From NCBI GenBank assembly GCA_030622135.1, contig JAUXGL010000022.1, positions 1-35,126 of the forward strand: 35,126 nucleotides of DNA. Direction: 5' to 3'. The translations under genes and the position numbers were made by a program. Of this stretch, positions 6,321-16,195 are shown piece by piece. A model generated the notes under the pieces. It saw only the letters and a program-made list of their open reading frames with translations. It had not been told where the DNA came from and did not search any database. Each line of letters begins with the position of its first letter. The first letter of the stretch is position 1. The DNA is from Deltaproteobacteria bacterium. GTDB lineage: Bacteria; Myxococcota; B64-G9.

Positions 6321-8801
6321 TTAGCGCCCCCTCCGTCCCCTTTTTTGTCTTATTGTCCCGCCATCTTCTGCTCCCCAACTGCCCCAGGTAGGTTCCGGTG
6401 AGACATATTTACGACCGAACACCCAATTAATCATAAGATCATTTGCACCATATTTCACGAAGATAATTGGTAGATCCACATCTGGAACGTAAACGCTATC
6501 AGTGTTTTCCAAAGCATCGTCTAAATAATACTTTGCCTCGGAACCTCCGTTTTTCATAATTTCGAATATATGTTCGCCATTATACGCATCAATTGTAGTC
6601 TTTTCATTTCCAGCAGCAGTTCTCGAACGAACATCCCAATCGAAATAGGTTAAAAAACTGCATTCTTTATTTATATCATTATACAATCCTCCCATAGCAT
6701 AAACTGTAGATCCTGCTTCATTAGGATGTGTAGCTTTCCAGCGTATTGCAGTTCCCGTCCATATCTTTGATTTTATTCGCTCCGCATCGTCTAAATGCAA
6801 TACTTCACTGACAACCGTAGGAGAACCATTTAAAATAGTCCACTTAGCTGTAAGATCATCAATTTCGTCTTCGTCATGTGTGAAATTGGAATCTTTACCC
6901 CATGCCGCAGCTATACCACCATAGCCAGGCCATACGCCTGGACCAAAAAGAAATTCCAATTCACCATTTGCATTATAAACTGTCTGGTAGAAGGCACCAT
7001 CATTATATGCTTTCCCTACCATTTCCTCACCGACTATCTTGTCAAAAGCCCAATTCTCACCGCCATCAGTACTCTTATACAGCTTCGCGGTTTTATGATC
7101 GGAACTATCCATAACTATCCTCATATTTGAAGAGTCATCTACTTTTAAAACGCCAAAAGAGCAGTTTTGCACAAATGTATAGCTAACAGCATCATAAGTA
7201 TTCCATGCACTACCACTCCACTTTGCAAGCTTTACTTTATCATCTCCTGAATATGCAAAAAGGATATACGGGTTATTGCTTGAATCTATGTCCAAGCCCC
7301 ATATCCATGTCTTATTCCCTGTAAATGCTTTTTCAGCATTTGCTTCTGTGATCGGAAGTGTTAGGACGGTACCATCTCGCTTCTTCCATTGTCCCACCGA
7401 GATGTCATAATAGGCATAATAAAGATTATGCCAGTCTGGAGAACGATCAAGCCATAGCCACACCATATGAATATCCCCGTTTGATGCGACCATTGTTCTT
7501 GCATATACACAATTGAAGTTCGGCAATCCGCTGAAGTCCGTTACATCTGTTTCTGAACTCCAATTCGCCCCCCCGTCAGAAGTCGTTTTATACGACCACT
7601 CTCTGCCTGCGCCTCGATAGAATACCCATAATTTGCTATCCGTATAAAAAACCTGCGGATATGTAGCACTTGAAGCCAATGTCTGCTGATCACCCCATGA
7701 TGTTATATCGTATGTATTTGTGGATTTCTTATAATACTGCGTACTAATGTGGGAACCATAAAAAACATAAAGATAACCGTCATTATCAATCCCTAATGCA
7801 GGTGCTCCATGTCCATCAGAAGCTAGTTTGCTGCCTCCAATATCTGTAGTATTTTGAAATACATCAGTTGTATGATTATATTCAATAATTTTTCTTCCAC
7901 AATCATCTGTTTGCCATATTATGTATGTTTTGCTTTGGCTGGCAACGTAAATCGCAGAAGGATACTGCGGTGGATAAATTCCGTTGCCATATACATCATC
8001 TGAAATTTTCGCCCAAGAAACAGAAACAGTGCCATATGGACAAAAATCATCAAAAAAGGGGAAGGCATCGTGTCCATTGCTTTCTCCGCTATCATCGCTC
8101 TTTCCATAATACATATAAAAATAAATAGACCCCGAAGCAGGAATGGATGCAACTTCTATCTGTATTGTTGCCAATCTATTTGGTGTTGTACCTGTTATTG
8201 ATTCCACCCAATAATCATGTTTTGCCGTACCATCTTCATTCGTGAATCTGATATCATTTGGGAAATCCTGACAATGATTCCCACAATCTACATTTTCACC
8301 TGTTGCTCCTGATGACTCACCCACCAAAAGTTTCATTTGATAATCGGTTTGCGCACCTGCGGTGGTTGCGTTGACTGCGCCTTTTTTGCGATATGTGTAT
8401 CCTGGCAGCCAACCCACCATAACGGCGCTCACGCACTGGCCGTTCTGGCAGGCCTCGTCCTGCCCGCAGTCCCCGTCCTCCAGGCACTCCACACAGTTGC
8501 CCGTGGCCGTATCGCAGCGGGACCCGTTGCAATCCGAGTCGTCCTGACAGTCGGTAACGTCCGTGCAGGTTCCGTCCTCGCAGGTCTTGCCCGGGGCGCA
8601 GTCCGCATCCATGGAGCAAGACCGCGACTTGCACCGACCTCCCAGGCATTGCTCGTCAGACTCGCAGTCGGCGTCCGTCAGACAAGTATCGCCCGAGGGG
8701 CCGGAGGTCCCGCATCCGGCCAAGACCGCAACCGCCAAGCAACAAACCACGACAGTCCAAAAGCTCCGTCTCACATCCGTACTCAGGGATAGTAATTTCA
8801 A
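6321..8801 (-). CDS. DUF2341 surface lipoprotein with inserted BNR-type propeller
   Basis: The product is 826 residues. An N-terminal signal ends in the lipobox VLAGC, so it is probably lipid-anchored. A cysteine-rich stretch (about residues 35-120) repeats the pattern D-x-D-C-x-x-G/D-x-x-C-x-x-G-x-C, as in myxobacterial surface lipoproteins. A DUF2341 domain follows (about 125-240, YRKKGAVNAT to FPFFDDF). The next 350 or so residues hold BNR/sialidase-like repeats (STDGGENWAF, SDGGANWSS), indicating a beta-propeller. The C-terminus resumes a lectin-like DUF2341 partner domain and ends with the typical WVFGRKYVSPEPTWGSWG. The start is TTG 8801, eight bases after AGGA; GTG 8774 is the alternative. 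A further-upstream TTG at 8858 is excluded because it lies in the promoter -35 box. The cysteine part is GC-rich, whereas the remainder is AT-rich with different codon use, suggesting a recombined gene. A carbohydrate-binding or adhesive role is inferred. Confidence 0.82.
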   Translation of the reverse strand: MKLLSLSTDVRRSFWTVVVCCLAVAVLAGCGTSGPSGDTCLTDADCESDEQCLGGRCKSRSCSMDADCAPGKTCEDGTCTDVTDCQDDSDCNGSRCDTATGNCVECLEDGDCGQDEACQNGQCVSAVMVGWLPGYTYRKKGAVNATTAGAQTDYQMKLLVGESSGATGENVDCGNHCQDFPNDIRFTNEDGTAKHDYWVESITGTTPNRLATIQIEVASIPASGSIYFYMYYGKSDDSGESNGHDAFPFFDDFCPYGTVSVSWAKISDDVYGNGIYPPQYPSAIYVASQSKTYIIWQTDDCGRKIIEYNHTTDVFQNTTDIGGSKLASDGHGAPALGIDNDGYLYVFYGSHISTQYYKKSTNTYDITSWGDQQTLASSATYPQVFYTDSKLWVFYRGAGREWSYKTTSDGGANWSSETDVTDFSGLPNFNCVYARTMVASNGDIHMVWLWLDRSPDWHNLYYAYYDISVGQWKKRDGTVLTLPITEANAEKAFTGNKTWIWGLDIDSSNNPYILFAYSGDDKVKLAKWSGSAWNTYDAVSYTFVQNCSFGVLKVDDSSNMRIVMDSSDHKTAKLYKSTDGGENWAFDKIVGEEMVGKAYNDGAFYQTVYNANGELEFLFGPGVWPGYGGIAAAWGKDSNFTHDEDEIDDLTAKWTILNGSPTVVSEVLHLDDAERIKSKIWTGTAIRWKATHPNEAGSTVYAMGGLYNDINKECSFLTYFDWDVRSRTAAGNEKTTIDAYNGEHIFEIMKNGGSEAKYYLDDALENTDSVYVPDVDLPIIFVKYGANDLMINWVFGRKYVSPEPTWGSWGAEDGGTIRQKRGRRGR

Positions 8802-8829
8802 AGCACTCTTCCTGGGCCCTCTACGACTG

Positions 8830-8858
8830 AATATGCACAGAATCAGACCCAGTGTCAA
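8830..8858 (-). promoter_or_regulatory. Sigma70-type promoter of the DUF2341 lipoprotein
   Basis: On the minus strand the perfect -35 box TTGACA (8858-8853) is followed after 17 bases by CATATT (8835-8830). Transcription would start near 8823, leaving a 5' leader of about 22 bases with AGGAAGAG before TTG 8801. This supports the TTG start. Confidence 0.55.
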
Positions 8859-9729: not shown

Positions 9730-11466
9730 GTGGACGCCTTCAAGCTGCTGCAGAGCTATGATCGCAACGGAGTGCTGGGAGAACTTACCGGGGCCTCGGT
9801 ACAAAAGGTGGAGGATTTTTTCCGTCTGGCGCACCGGCAGGCCGTGTCCGCCCTGGAGGAGGCCCGCAACCGGGCGCGCGCGGAGAGGCGGGAGATTCCC
9901 GTGGATGCATCGCGGCTCTCCGGGGTCAACGGGGGCGACACCTGGATCGTTGGGCCGGACGGCACGAGCCGGCGCGAGCTGGAGATGTTTCCCGGAGTGG
10001 AGGCGCAGCTTCTCGACCCCGGCCGGCGCTTCGAAGATCTGCGACCGTGCTCCACCCTGACCCGGGCCCGGCCGCTCTTCGCCCGCTGCGCATACAACGG
10101 CCTGTGGTCGCCCTCGGGAACCAACTGGCAACCCATCCGCTCGGTGGAGCTTTCCGGCTCCGAGGTGGCCCGGCTGACCGGCGCGCCATCCAACTCCTGC
10201 GGCCTTCTGGTGCTTTCGCGCCGGCGCTACCAATCCATCCTCTCGGACATCGCCGAGCTGTGCGGCTTCGAGCAGACCTCCCACGCGGAGCACATCGACC
10301 TGGGCATCTGGCTGCTCTGCGCCGAGCAAACCGCCCGCAGCCATGGCTGGGAGCTGACCGCCACGAGGATCGCCGACCTGGAACAGAAAGAATGCGCCCG
10401 CACGCTGATCTCCATCCTGGGCGAACGGGTGAGAAACCTGCCCGGCCCCGATTGTAAAGCCGCGGAGGAACTGCTCCGGTCCGTCCAGTCGGGGGACCAC
10501 CACCCGGCCTACATTCTGCTGCCGTCGGAGGGCCACCCGTTGGTGCTGAACGAACGTTTTTCCGGCGGGCTGCGGCCCTCCCACTTCGATCGCCTGGTCC
10601 AGGCTCGCTCCACCCAGCGGGTGGCTAGCCCCGCGGAGGAGTTGGAAGCCAAGACTCTCGAGTGGCTCTTTGAAAAAGCGCAGGACTTCCTGCCGAACGA
10701 AATCCGCTCGGCGCTGGCCTGCCCGGTCTTCACCCACACAGACGAGTTCCCCGCCGAAATGGGTCACGCCATGCACGCGGGGATCGAAGGCTCCGGCGGC
10801 TTGATGCAGAAAGCCAGCCTGGTGCGATTGAAATCGCATCTGTGCCTCCGGGGCAAGCTCCCCAAAGAACTGCTGGAATGGACCCGGCTGGACGACCCGG
10901 ATCTGGAGTTCAGGGGCAAGGGAGTACCCCTGCCGGCGCGCCTGGTGCCAGCCCACATCCGCGCGAAGCTGCAGGAGGGCGGTCACTTCAAAAGGAAGGG
11001 CGAGTACCTGGTGGATCACCGGGATCGGCCGCTGAACCCGGTACGCCTGATGAAGCTTACGCGAATGATGGCCCGGTCGTTCGGCAAGTTCTTTTTGACT
11101 TTCCAAAACACCCATCCGCTTCTGGGCGTGATCCTCGGCCCCCCAAACGACGCTGGAGCCTACCGGGCGGTGGGCCGGCTGGTCGCGCACATGACCTTCC
11201 TCTCCCGAGCCCGCGGCCGGGTGTCCATCATCAAGAGCGGCCCCCTGGAGATCGCCGGGAAGGCAATACACCGGCAACTAAAGAAGCGCATCCGCATGAC
11301 CGATAAGCTGGAGCCGGTGGTCACCTTCCAGCTGGGCCTACCCCTGGGGCCGGATGAGACGGTGACTGTAGGCAAGCCCGACGAACACGACGGAGCCAAG
11401 GAGCGCCTGTTGGACCGGCGGGCGCCACGGGCGCCGATCTCGGCGCACTATATTCCGATGGGGTAG
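9730..11466 (+). CDS. Large protein with nitroreductase-like region, function unknown
   Basis: This is a 578-residue soluble protein without signal peptide or membrane segment. Residues about 95-240 recall the nitroreductase fold. ARCAYNGLWSPSGTNWQP resembles the APSxxNxQPW flavin segment, and HAEHIDLGIWLLCAEQ resembles the central helix. The C-terminal part (about 440-560) has GAYRAVGRLVAHMTFLSRA and FQLGLPLGPDE, which might be a second, degenerate half. I do not recognise the family with certainty. The frame has a stop codon just upstream of GTG 9730, so this is the first possible start. AAGAGG lies too close (one base) to act as an ordinary ribosome site. The gene diverges from a true nitroreductase, which suggests a functional link. 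It ends shortly before a repeat and a transposase remnant. Confidence 0.75.
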   Translation: MDAFKLLQSYDRNGVLGELTGASVQKVEDFFRLAHRQAVSALEEARNRARAERREIPVDASRLSGVNGGDTWIVGPDGTSRRELEMFPGVEAQLLDPGRRFEDLRPCSTLTRARPLFARCAYNGLWSPSGTNWQPIRSVELSGSEVARLTGAPSNSCGLLVLSRRRYQSILSDIAELCGFEQTSHAEHIDLGIWLLCAEQTARSHGWELTATRIADLEQKECARTLISILGERVRNLPGPDCKAAEELLRSVQSGDHHPAYILLPSEGHPLVLNERFSGGLRPSHFDRLVQARSTQRVASPAEELEAKTLEWLFEKAQDFLPNEIRSALACPVFTHTDEFPAEMGHAMHAGIEGSGGLMQKASLVRLKSHLCLRGKLPKELLEWTRLDDPDLEFRGKGVPLPARLVPAHIRAKLQEGGHFKRKGEYLVDHRDRPLNPVRLMKLTRMMARSFGKFFLTFQNTHPLLGVILGPPNDAGAYRAVGRLVAHMTFLSRARGRVSIIKSGPLEIAGKAIHRQLKKRIRMTDKLEPVVTFQLGLPLGPDETVTVGKPDEHDGAKERLLDRRAPRAPISAHYIPMG

Positions 11467-11953: not shown

Positions 11954-13795
11954 TCAAGACCCGGTGCTCTTAAACTGCTGAGAGGATGTTGTAACGCCAA
12001 TCGACGTGATACAGGCATTTGTGAATAAGAACTCCCTTGTAGCCAATTTCTTATCGACAATCCGCTCGCGGGTGGCATCCAAAGTCTGTACGATAGTCGA
12101 AAAAGGAACATCCCTCTCAGCTCTAATGATCACGGTGTCGCTTTTTGGATGCTTATCGTGGATCTCTTTTATTCTCTTTGCCAACGCTTGAAAATTGAAA
12201 TCATGGTTTTCCTTGGGTATTTCGAAATGCAATCTCTCTAGCTCGTCACCTTGTTGAACTCCATTAGCGGATAAGGTAAATCCGTTATTGGCAATCTGAA
12301 CATAAAGGGTAAAACGGAGAGATTCAGTTTCATCATCTTCGGGGTTTTCCAACCGAACATCTTCAATATTCACTTTAGCGAATCGATCCAAGGGGACTCC
12401 ATCAGAGGGTGATATCCTCTTCGCAAGAAGCTTTTGGGGATCCAATCCCGGAGTGTCTTCACCATCAGATGGTTCGTCATTGGTATCGATAGACTTACGA
12501 TAAAAACCGAAAACAGCATCTTCAGATTCTTCAAGACAAAAGGTAGGAGCAGATACATTGATCACGGCCACTCTTTGTCTTGATAGTGGCCTCTGATCTT
12601 TCCGCAAGACAACCAAGCGAAAATTTGGATATCCTGCCTGGGAAGTAGATTTCACAATTTGGTCCAAGGTCTCAAAAGGGACACTCTTATCGGCTTGCAG
12701 GCAAATGACCGTTTCATCTCCTGTTGGGTTTATAGACTCTTTGGCCTCGATTTCTTTGAACATTCGCAACAGTCTGTGAAGTGGCCTGATTCGTTGTTTC
12801 TGCAGATCAAAATATTTGGATTCAACAATGCCGTTGTTGAGTTTGGCGATCGTATTGCCTTCTACTTTTAGTTCGGTTTGACTAATGTTTACATTGATCG
12901 CCCATTTGTAATCGAGCATTGAAGATGATTCGGGAAGTTCTATCGATGGATCGAGCTTGAAATTCCCGTCTATCCAGTCCATGGCCCACATCTCGCCAAA
13001 TACGGCGGATTCGATTTTATCTGGCACTGAATAATTGCCAAATTCATCGATTTTACCCACGAGTTGGTTCATCGTAGTGTTTGAATCTTGAACATGGTTA
13101 CGAGTAATGATGAACGCTACAACACCCATTGCACATACAAAGATGCCGCAAACCAATGCATTTCGACTATGTCTTAGTTGATCCTTCCTGCTACGAACAA
13201 CAGCAATGATGATAGAACAACATAAAAGGACACATATCCAGATTGCTGCATCGAGAACAAACGAATGATCAAATGCCTTCAGTTTTGCAATAAGCTGCCT
13301 CGGAACCTCCTCTCGTCCGAACAACTGTCGAATTGTTCCAGCCTTGAGATCCTGCTGATATACTCCCAATCCGATTATTACCCCTGCCAAATTGATGCCT
13401 AGCCCAACGATATTTCCGCAAATGCCAAAGTTGGTCTTGTGACGATTCTTCCACCAATTGGTTGCCAGGCTGAAGATACCGATGAATGACAATGCAATTA
13501 GTGAGACACCCGCGAATAATCGAAGCGATCCAATTTGACAGAGTATGCCACATTCCGGGACAGATTGTTTGAAAGCGTCTAAGATGCTGATGGGTTCGAA
13601 CGGAGCGATTCTTTTCAAATGAATACCGATCAGTAGCAGTATGACAAATATGATTGGCGACAGAATGGCTGTTGCTGTACCTGCCTGAACTATCTTCAAA
13701 GTGGATTCTTTCGACTTCCTGAAAACAGCGATTACTATGAAGGCAACTTGTAATAACAGCAAAATGCCTGCGACAACCGTAATGATCATTCTCAT
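11954..13795 (-). CDS. Polytopic membrane protein with two ExbD-like domains
   Basis: The 613-residue product has about six transmembrane segments in residues 1-235 (near 3-24, 42-60, 93-111, 127-146, 183-201, 215-232). Two ExbD/TolR-type periplasmic domains follow. Domain 1 is about residues 298-400, with the signature CLQADKSVPFETLDQIVKS. Domain 2 is about 493-600, with IIRAERDVPFSTIVQTLDA. ExbD normally has one membrane helix and one such domain and works with the proton channel ExbB. Here two domains are fused behind a multi-helix region. The first two helices and the charged loop (FRKSKESTLK) resemble the N-terminus of the upstream gene product (FKKKRQETALK), indicating duplication. ATG 13795 is two bases after the upstream stop codon, so translation is probably coupled. 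Base composition is AT-richer than the flanking genes. Energised transport or cell-envelope force transmission is inferred. Confidence 0.75.
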   Translation of the reverse strand: MRMIITVVAGILLLLQVAFIVIAVFRKSKESTLKIVQAGTATAILSPIIFVILLLIGIHLKRIAPFEPISILDAFKQSVPECGILCQIGSLRLFAGVSLIALSFIGIFSLATNWWKNRHKTNFGICGNIVGLGINLAGVIIGLGVYQQDLKAGTIRQLFGREEVPRQLIAKLKAFDHSFVLDAAIWICVLLCCSIIIAVVRSRKDQLRHSRNALVCGIFVCAMGVVAFIITRNHVQDSNTTMNQLVGKIDEFGNYSVPDKIESAVFGEMWAMDWIDGNFKLDPSIELPESSSMLDYKWAINVNISQTELKVEGNTIAKLNNGIVESKYFDLQKQRIRPLHRLLRMFKEIEAKESINPTGDETVICLQADKSVPFETLDQIVKSTSQAGYPNFRLVVLRKDQRPLSRQRVAVINVSAPTFCLEESEDAVFGFYRKSIDTNDEPSDGEDTPGLDPQKLLAKRISPSDGVPLDRFAKVNIEDVRLENPEDDETESLRFTLYVQIANNGFTLSANGVQQGDELERLHFEIPKENHDFNFQALAKRIKEIHDKHPKSDTVIIRAERDVPFSTIVQTLDATRERIVDKKLATREFLFTNACITSIGVTTSSQQFKSTGS

Positions 13796-13797
13796 GG

Positions 13798-14298
13798 TCA
13801 CACCATCCAACTGAAAACAGCAAATAGAAAGGAATCAAAATCCAGGTACGACAACAAAGAGATGCACAGAAGGCCGATTCCGACGCCCATGCACAGGATT
13901 GTCAGAATTGAAGATGCGGCTGTGCTGGCTGCTTGTTCAGCTTTGGTTGGTAATGTAAGCCCACGAAAAAGTAAAAATACGTTCAATAGAATTGGAATAA
14001 CTACTGCGAATACAGCATAGGTAAGCGGCTTGGCTGCCAAATGAATCCCCACTTGCTGGACTTCGAATTTTTTTGACGCTGACGCCGAAGAAACTCCGTC
14101 ATGCACCATAGACAAGCCAATTCGATAGGCAATCCATGCAGTCAGAGCCACGATCAGAATAGTCCCAAATCCAGCCCAGCAAAACTTCAAAGCGGTTTCT
14201 TGTCGCTTTTTCTTGAAGGAGAAAATGATACCAACGATGGCTAAGACATGAATCAAGACTCCAAGCACAATTATCCCGATTTCAAAAACCAAGCTCAT
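13798..14298 (-). CDS. Small four-helix membrane protein paired with ExbD-like gene
   Basis: The 166-residue protein has four predicted transmembrane segments (about residues 5-27, 40-62, 92-113, 128-152) and no extended soluble domain. It is encoded just before the tandem-ExbD protein with a gap of two bases, the position normally held by ExbB/TolQ/MotA-type proton channel genes. However, I do not see the glycine-rich GLLGTVxGM motif of that family. Its first helix pair and the basic loop FKKKRQETALKFCWAG align well with the N-terminus of its partner. It may be the channel subunit of a divergent proton-driven complex. ATG 14298 follows GGAGGATTTCC, a good ribosome site. Composition is AT-rich like its partner. 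Confidence 0.7.
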   Translation of the reverse strand: MSLVFEIGIIVLGVLIHVLAIVGIIFSFKKKRQETALKFCWAGFGTILIVALTAWIAYRIGLSMVHDGVSSASASKKFEVQQVGIHLAAKPLTYAVFAVVIPILLNVFLLFRGLTLPTKAEQAASTAASSILTILCMGVGIGLLCISLLSYLDFDSFLFAVFSWMV

Positions 14299-15031: not shown

Positions 15032-16195
15032 TCACAGCACCTCGCTGATGTCGCGCCAGGGCACGACCTCGGCCACCTCGCGCGACTGCCGATCCTGCCC
15101 GCCGTAAATGAGCACCGGCCGCGACGCACGCGAGCCAGCCAGGGCACACCACTTCTCCAGGCCGCGTAGCCAATCGGAGGTAATCGTCATCCCCGACTTG
15201 ACCTCGATTGGCCGCAGCTTCCCGGCGTGGTCCTCAATGATGTCGATCTCGTGCCCGGTGTTGTTGCGCCAGAAGAACAGGTTGTCATCCTTCGCACGAT
15301 TGAACCGCCCCTTGAGCAGCTCGGTCAGGACCCAATTCTCGAACAGGGGGCCGCGCATGCGGTGGGTGCTCAGTTGCTCCGCGGTCTCGATCCCAAGCAG
15401 CCGTGCCACCAGGCCGGTGTCGTGGAAATAGAGCTTGGGCGCCTTGACCAGGCGCTTGCGGAAATTCGCGTGATGCGGGAGCAACCGGTAGCAAACGAAC
15501 GCGGTCTCCAAGACCTGGAGCCAGGCCCGGGCGGTCTTCTGGTCGACGCTGCAATCCGCGCCGAGCCTGGTCAGGTTGACCAGCTGGCCTATGTTGGCAG
15601 CGCATAGGCGCATGAACCGCTGAAAGGTCCCGATGTTGGTGACAGCCAGCAACTGCCGCATGTCCCGCTCGAGGTAGGTGTTGATGTAGGCGTTGTACCA
15701 GCGCTCCGGGGTGGCCGGCGAGGCATGGAGCGGGGGGTAGCCACCGCGCAGCAGCAGCACCTCGATCTCGTCCGGGCAGATGCCACTGGCAACCAGCTCT
15801 GGCAGGGACAGAGGAAGCAGGTGTAAGATGCCGACACGGCCAGCGAGGGTTTGCGACACCTGCTCCATCAGACCGAAGTGCTGCGATCCAGTGAGCACGA
15901 AGCGGCCAAACTCGGGTGATTGATCGATGACCCCCTGCAGATAGGACAGGATTTCGGGGCAACGCTGGGCCTCGTCGAAGATGGCGCCGGCCTCGTGCTT
16001 GCGCATGAAACGGCGCGGGTCGGTGGCAGCGAACTCGCGCGTGTCCGGGTCTTCAAAGGTCACGTACGGCTTGTCCGGGAATGTGTGCTGTACGAGGGTC
16101 GTCTTGCCCGATTGCCGGGGCCCGGTGACAGTGATTGCGCGGAACTCAGTAGCGAGAGAGGAGAGGGTGGCTTCGGCAGCTCGCGGAATATACAT
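15032..16195 (-). CDS. AAA-type ATPase with DUF4143 domain
   Basis: The 387-residue product has the P-loop GPRQSGKTT at residues 25-33 and a Walker B region GAIFDEAQ near 90-97. The sensor-like stretch FVLTGSQ lies near 119-125. The C-terminal DUF4143 half includes YINTYLERDMRQL, LYFHDTGLVARLLG, a conserved ENWVLTELLK segment, and the restriction-endonuclease-like HEIDII...RPIEVKSG. This two-domain architecture is very common in bacteria and often lies in mobile or accessory DNA; its cellular role is not settled. The ATG at 16195 has GGGG seven bases upstream. An elaborate inverted repeat just ahead of the start is a likely operator. The gene sits inside the segment bounded by 59-bp direct repeats. 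Confidence 0.9.
   Translation of the reverse strand: MYIPRAAEATLSSLATEFRAITVTGPRQSGKTTLVQHTFPDKPYVTFEDPDTREFAATDPRRFMRKHEAGAIFDEAQRCPEILSYLQGVIDQSPEFGRFVLTGSQHFGLMEQVSQTLAGRVGILHLLPLSLPELVASGICPDEIEVLLLRGGYPPLHASPATPERWYNAYINTYLERDMRQLLAVTNIGTFQRFMRLCAANIGQLVNLTRLGADCSVDQKTARAWLQVLETAFVCYRLLPHHANFRKRLVKAPKLYFHDTGLVARLLGIETAEQLSTHRMRGPLFENWVLTELLKGRFNRAKDDNLFFWRNNTGHEIDIIEDHAGKLRPIEVKSGMTITSDWLRGLEKWCALAGSRASRPVLIYGGQDRQSREVAEVVPWRDISEVL

Follow-up and report, generated by a model that had tools for sequence, protein, structure and literature searches.

The window analysed here, a 35,126-nucleotide stretch on contig C119 of a 4.8-Mb deltaproteobacterial draft genome (G000), carries two adjacent genes, g1 and g2, which are presented with their features in Table 1. 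An earlier reading of this DNA, made from the sequence only, had placed the two genes two bases from each other, and the open reading frames, both of which run on the minus strand, bear this out: the ATG at 13795 lies two bases past the g1 stop and gives a g2 product of 613 residues, and a 618-residue version of this frame begins at an upstream TTG. Hydropathy predicts four transmembrane (TM) helices in g1 and six in g2, which together with Pfam agrees with the description in that reading of a four-helix protein followed by one with about six helices and two ExbD/TolR-like domains.

Table 1 Features of the g1-g2 gene pair, in window positions
Feature	Position	Strand	Description or basis
g1	13798..14298	-	166-aa, 4-TM divergent ExbB/TolQ-like protein; ORF and profile chain to ExbB
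g1 residues 61-88, periplasmic ExbB-like loop GLSMVHDGVSSASASKKFEVQQVGIHLA	14035..14118	-	16/28 identical to C169 ExbB
g1 TM4, extra helix past the ExbB-like three	13852..13908	-	Hydropathy; comparison with fusions
g2	11954..13795	-	613-aa: two ExbB-like hairpins, one ExbD-type helix, ExbD1 and ExbD2 periplasmic domains
g2 TM2-loop-TM3, first ExbB-like hairpin	13457..13684	-	A3 profile; pooled unit profile P=5.5e-5
g2 TM4-loop-TM5, second ExbB-like hairpin	13187..13423	-	Pooled unit profile P=6.9e-7
g2 TM6 and TRxHAxD motif	13085..13159	-	ExbD-type helix without proton-carrying Asp
g2 periplasmic domain 1, D1-type (AglS-like) ExbD	12599..12943	-	55% identity to C169 ExbD1; z=56; tree
g2 periplasmic domain 2, D2-type (AglQ-like) ExbD	11996..12343	-	52% identity to C169 ExbD2; z=56; tree

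The pair is AT-richer than its surroundings, as had been noted, with a GC content of 43-44% versus 59% for the window; its GC3 is 44-46%, whereas the motor operon of contig C169 in the same genome has about 80%. The orthologue in genome G003 likewise has a higher AT content than the DNA around it, and the pair may therefore have been acquired or have a relaxed composition. The further claim that the genes lie between direct repeats does not hold in the form of transposon-like repeats. The sole direct-repeat pair spanning g1-g2 is 16 nt long at 88% identity, and because shuffled flanks equal its score in 3 of 200 trials it is a weak match that leaves a mobile element bounded by repeats unsupported; that candidate was rejected. 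The window neighbours (AAA_14/DUF4143, BNR, Clp, MutS2 and TonB receptor genes) are unrelated to g1-g2. Upstream of g1, the AAA_14/DUF4143 ATPase at 15032-16195 (-) matches the PADLOC candidate PDC-S01 (6e-101). A 578-aa frame convergent with g2 (9730-11466, +) has no Pfam, NCBIfam or PADLOC match, and a second AT-rich island of about 40% GC (6321-8858, -) encodes an 845-aa BNR_4/DUF2341 protein.

Relatives of the pair fall into three groups. Group A, with two ExbD domains, comprises the window, G003 C95, G007 C144 (which continues on C468) and G007 C273, so that its four copies represent three genomes of one family. Group B, with one ExbD domain, is found at G003 C487 and at G007 C323, where the frame appears to be broken, and group C at G006 C188 and G007 C90; an unpaired, distant g2 carrying one ExbD-like domain lies at a contig end in G031, a genome of another family. 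Wherever both genes are readable g1 is directly upstream of g2, and the pair occurs as a conserved unit in other genomes, against the absence elsewhere that would have refuted the sequence-only reading. The G003 g1 crosses a contig break from C95 to C15, and a break falls inside the pair in both other group A genomes (in g1 of G003, L062/L063, and in g2 of G007, L064/L070). A related-locus search of genome contigs returned one relative, that of G003 (JAUVBB010000520.1, a Deltaproteobacteria MAG), and a plasmid search returned none.

Periplasmic domains and a cognate motor operon

The g2 protein matches the Pfam ExbD/TolR profile PF02472 with an E value of 3.6e-11 over two stretches (43.7 bits, cut-off 25.4), confirming the ExbD similarity of its C-terminal domains. 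In the ExbD tree, which has some long branches and weak support at many of its other nodes, every second domain groups with ExbD2 of canonical operons and every first domain falls outside, a split supported at 100/99. The tandem is therefore a fused D1-D2 heteropair, and its origin by internal duplication is ruled out.

How do these two domain types relate to known motors? In the Myxococcus Agl-Glt gliding machinery, AglR is ExbB-like and AglQ and AglS are ExbDs of 162 and 194 aa, with AglR at 245 aa (PMC3169522). At seven ExbB-ExbD-ExbD loci of f8 genomes, and in the operons on C131 and C203, the D2-type ExbD adjoins the ExbB and the other ExbD is D1-type; gene sizes at most f8 loci resemble those of AglR, AglQ and AglS. 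AglQ was assigned as D2 and AglS as D1 because of this gene order and size, rather than from a named sequence. With that assignment g1-g2 shares both ExbD types with AglRQS and differs in having no separate ExbDs, its domains following one another in D1-D2 order in one chain where the operons run D2 then D1. The D1-D2 order is also found fused to one ExbB-like unit and an AgmX/PglI TonB-like tail in G168 and G118. The presence of D1 and D2 in one chain in the window family and in these others supports a Rosetta-stone argument, which suggests that AglQ-type and AglS-type ExbDs pair. A 2022 review gives it as not known whether AglQ and AglS form hetero- or homodimers (PMC9389320), and the argument for pairing stands independently of what g1-g2 does.

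Comparison with 13 ExbDs and 8 ExbB hairpins of the window's own genome points to particular motor operons. Group A is closest to the C169 operon in both periplasmic domains (D1 z 55.9, D2 z 55.6) and in the g1 loop and hairpin (z 8.9), and the g1 hairpin reaches no more than z 1.6 against seven other ExbBs of that genome. Group B is closest to the C131 operon (D1 z 28.8, hairpin z 9.3), as is the g1 of group C (z 7.4), and some members, such as G007 C144 g1, are too diverged for any preference. That each group resembles one cognate operon in both ExbD and ExbB loop suggests shared partners. The C169 cluster (L009, 7159-18001) encodes TolQ-like, ExbD2, ExbD1, GltG-like, GltC-like and TPR proteins and is a cluster of the kind that Luciano et al. 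(PMC3169522) describe as ancestral ('GltD, E, G, C and AglR, Q, S'); its ExbD2 has Asn where ExbDs have Asp. Contig C169 also encodes a MYXO-CTERM cohesion protein, which together with the Glt-like genes makes Myxococcota the very probable phylum. C169-type operons occur in seven genomes, including all three that hold group A. The other four lack group A, which is therefore accessory.

Membrane parts of g1 and g2

The sequence-only reading had found no canonical ExbB here. This stands insofar as neither g1 nor g2 matches the Pfam MotA/TolQ/ExbB profile (PF01618) at E<=1, g1 giving no meaningful Pfam match at all, and needs correcting insofar as an ExbB equivalent is present in both proteins as divergent ExbB-like units. 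The periplasmic loop of g1, GLSMVHDGVSSASASKKFEVQQVGIHLA, aligns without gaps with GLIMAFEGVEMASAAKKQEVLARGISLA of the C169 ExbB, and in seven genomes g1 weakly matches the ExbB that a C169-type operon encodes, each time at the same place. Searches with g1 drew in small three-TM proteins from elsewhere in the phylum, which match g1 at 3.3e-12 and ExbB at P=3.2e-5 in profile comparisons (reversed control of the latter, 0.13). The combined g1/small-protein profile (A8) finds matches in 185 of the 195 genomes of the phylum; those at six inspected loci (L165-L169, L171) are full canonical ExbBs, which align colinearly over TM1 and TM2-TM3 (E about 1e-15). Aligned straight against ExbB by hhalign, without the bridging small proteins, g1 and g2 match weakly. 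The TM1-TM2 cytoplasmic loop of g1 spans ~12 residues, the large ExbB cytoplasmic domain being missing, and its TM4 sits where one-unit fusions have the ExbD-type helix.

The profile of pooled g1 and small proteins matches g2 at two successive places, the hairpins of Table 1. The A3 profile matches canonical ExbBs in five genomes at the region of the first hairpin (profile 42-111), which is weak in the window protein alone, and the second hairpin is significant individually in the group B and C orthologues. In hmmsearch repeat-unit searches with reversed controls, the group B, group C and G031 relatives of g2, taken singly, show two successive ExbB-like units (best E 3e-9). Taken alone, both window g2 hairpins lie below significance and were assigned through orthology, since this protein is too diverged; it scores 342 bits against the group profile, a profile that includes it. 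AlphaFold models built from two-row alignments reached a pLDDT of 58 for g1 and 34 for g2, a PDB fold search with the g1 model gave no match, and a profile made from the small-protein alignment found nothing related in the PDB. From the profile comparisons and the two successive units in relatives, it is very probable that g1 is a highly divergent ExbB/TolQ and that TM2-TM3 and TM4-TM5 of g2 are two further ExbB-like hairpins.

The likeness of the basic loops in g1 and g2, taken earlier as a sign of duplication, follows from both being ExbB-like repeats (g1 versus g2 by hhalign, P=1.4e-4); duplication does not extend to the tandem ExbD domains, which are not duplicates of each other. With ExbB-like hairpins and ExbD domains together in g2, the suggested partial fusion of channel and force-transmitting parts is upheld.

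Ion path and possible function

A fundamental question is whether such a complex could run on protons, as the sequence-only reading had supposed. All 33 alignable canonical ExbBs have Thr at the positions equivalent to E. coli ExbB Thr148 and Thr181. Among 33 divergent units, five have Thr at the T148 position, one at the T181 position and none at both; g1 has Tyr and Leu. The core of the ExbD-type helix, taken as the one before the ExbD domains (or before the tail in four proteins), contains no Asp or Glu in any of 20 fused proteins, apart from one Glu at a boundary, whereas canonical ExbD1s carry Asp in their TM helix. The transmembrane aspartate sought in g2 accordingly has no equivalent in TM6, which is free of acidic residues and is the last of six helices preceding the ExbD domains, unlike the single N-terminal helix of ExbD. 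Loss of this Asp and of the two pore threonines, judged from alignment and hydropathy, speaks against the proton-driven machine proposed earlier and against a PMF drive, and g1-g2 is probably not driven through the canonical ion path.

The favoured hypothesis is that g1 and g2 derive, as a free-standing gene pair, from an AglRQS/TolQR-type motor. In sequence, the ExbB-like pore hairpins are redistributed, one in g1 and two in g2, and are followed in g2 by an ExbD-type helix and the joined periplasmic domains of the D1 and D2 ExbDs of an Agl-Glt-like operon. The complex would reside in the inner membrane without running on protons, and selection would act on its periplasmic face, which would bind the same partner as the cognate motor, be it a GltG-like transducer, peptidoglycan or the motor's own ExbDs. 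By keeping this cognate face, the unpowered pseudo-motor would anchor, brake or compete with the powered one. We consider the chances of this reading evenly balanced, and the specific proposal that g1-g2 acts on the cognate motor is tentative and somewhat doubtful. If true, dead copies of proton motors would be kept as parts of envelope machines, much as pseudo-kinases regulate kinases. It is conceivable, if improbable, that Myxococcota hold a whole class of unpowered pseudo-motors, each derived from and matched to one ExbB-D2-D1 motor and regulating it by occupying its periplasmic partners; one g1 and two g2 would bring the ExbB hairpins to exactly five and the ExbD-type helices to two, a 5:2 plan rebuilt with no more than three chains.

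An alternative hypothesis is that the pair anchors to or senses the cell wall by itself, with no connection to a running motor, its ExbD domains binding peptidoglycan and its membrane part serving only as scaffold. TolR-like domains can bind peptidoglycan (PMC9389320), and the compared loci have no genes in common around g1-g2 beyond the pair itself; the specific likeness to one cognate operon that every group shows suggests shared partners instead and makes this alternative unlikely. We also regard it as rather improbable that g1-g2 is a functional motor driven by ions through other residues, such as D182 in TM5 or T231, H234 and D237 at the end of TM6. The TRxHAxD motif after TM6 is conserved across the g2 relatives, T231 and H234 being invariant in those of family f1 and D237 nearly invariant, and three of the four group A copies have D182 or Glu at its position. 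However, this acidic residue is absent from groups B and C and from G007 C273, H234 and D237 sit at the periplasmic face of the membrane or beyond it, and the class as a whole has lost the canonical Asp and Thr.

That the ExbB likeness is one of shared hydrophobicity, the TM parts being unrelated helices fused to ExbD domains, would fit the weak scores of the window proteins alone and the missing Pfam MotA_ExbB match, but is very unlikely given the reversed controls, the colinear matches to canonical ExbBs and the way in which particular own-genome ExbBs stand out as best matches. That the pair is what remains of a motor operon in decay, as AT-richness, degenerate TM parts and the apparent frame breaks of relatives such as G007 C323 might suggest, is scarcely credible when the window and G003 C95 pairs keep intact frames at about 63% identity, codon position 2 differs least between them (0.25/0.16/0.34), a pattern in favour of selection, and several gene pairs stayed together.

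Known motors and related fusions

The unpowered pseudo-motor proposed here would depart from described systems in several respects. With the 5:2 motors ExbBD and TolQR (PDB 5sv0, 8odt) g1-g2 shares the ExbD/TolR periplasmic domains and the ExbB TM2-loop-TM3 hairpin, but it lacks the large cytoplasmic domain and a Pfam MotA_ExbB match, has lost the ion path and carries its ExbD domains fused to six helices. Its repeated ExbB hairpins, missing Asp and altered pore Thr residues likewise set it apart from AglRQS. Zorya ZorAB is another MotAB/ExbBD relative (PMC12505986), and a Zorya defence system was ruled out, as neither g1 nor g2 has a PADLOC match to ZorA or ZorB. The literature describes ExbBD, TolQR, MotAB, AglRQS, GldLM and ZorAB (PMC12505986, PMC9389320, PMC12204202, PMC3169522); fusions of the g1-g2 type were not found mentioned in the sources searched on these systems, many subscription papers lying outside that search, which within this range agrees with the earlier suggestion of an undescribed module.

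The pair belongs to a wider undescribed set across the phylum that includes shortened ExbB-like proteins and one-chain ExbB-ExbD-ExbD-TonB-like fusions. The shortened ExbB-like unit is common to g1-g2 and to the small three-TM proteins and one-chain fusions at L099-L106, L174, L181, L182 and L186. Those at L174 and L181 have D1-D2 ExbD domains as in g2, but with one ExbB-like unit and an AgmX/PglI TonB-like tail, whereas recognisable ExbD is missing at L099-L106, L182 and L186, unlike in g2. At L174 (1077-2567, -) and L181 (1179-3242, +) an ExbB-like unit, D1, D2 and a TonB-like tail make up a whole Ton-like set in one polypeptide, the tail being identified by profile for L174 and by eye with a weak TonB_C match for L181. 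Fusions at L175, L176, L177 and L179 join an ExbB-like unit and a helix to an apparent AgmX/PglI-type tail (profile-confirmed for L175 only) without ExbD domains. Adjacent pairs of small three-TM ExbB-like proteins, which belong to no Pfam family, occur in several genomes of the phylum, for example at L100 (1000-1803 and 1389-1787, -) and L101 (929-1474 and 1090-1872, +).
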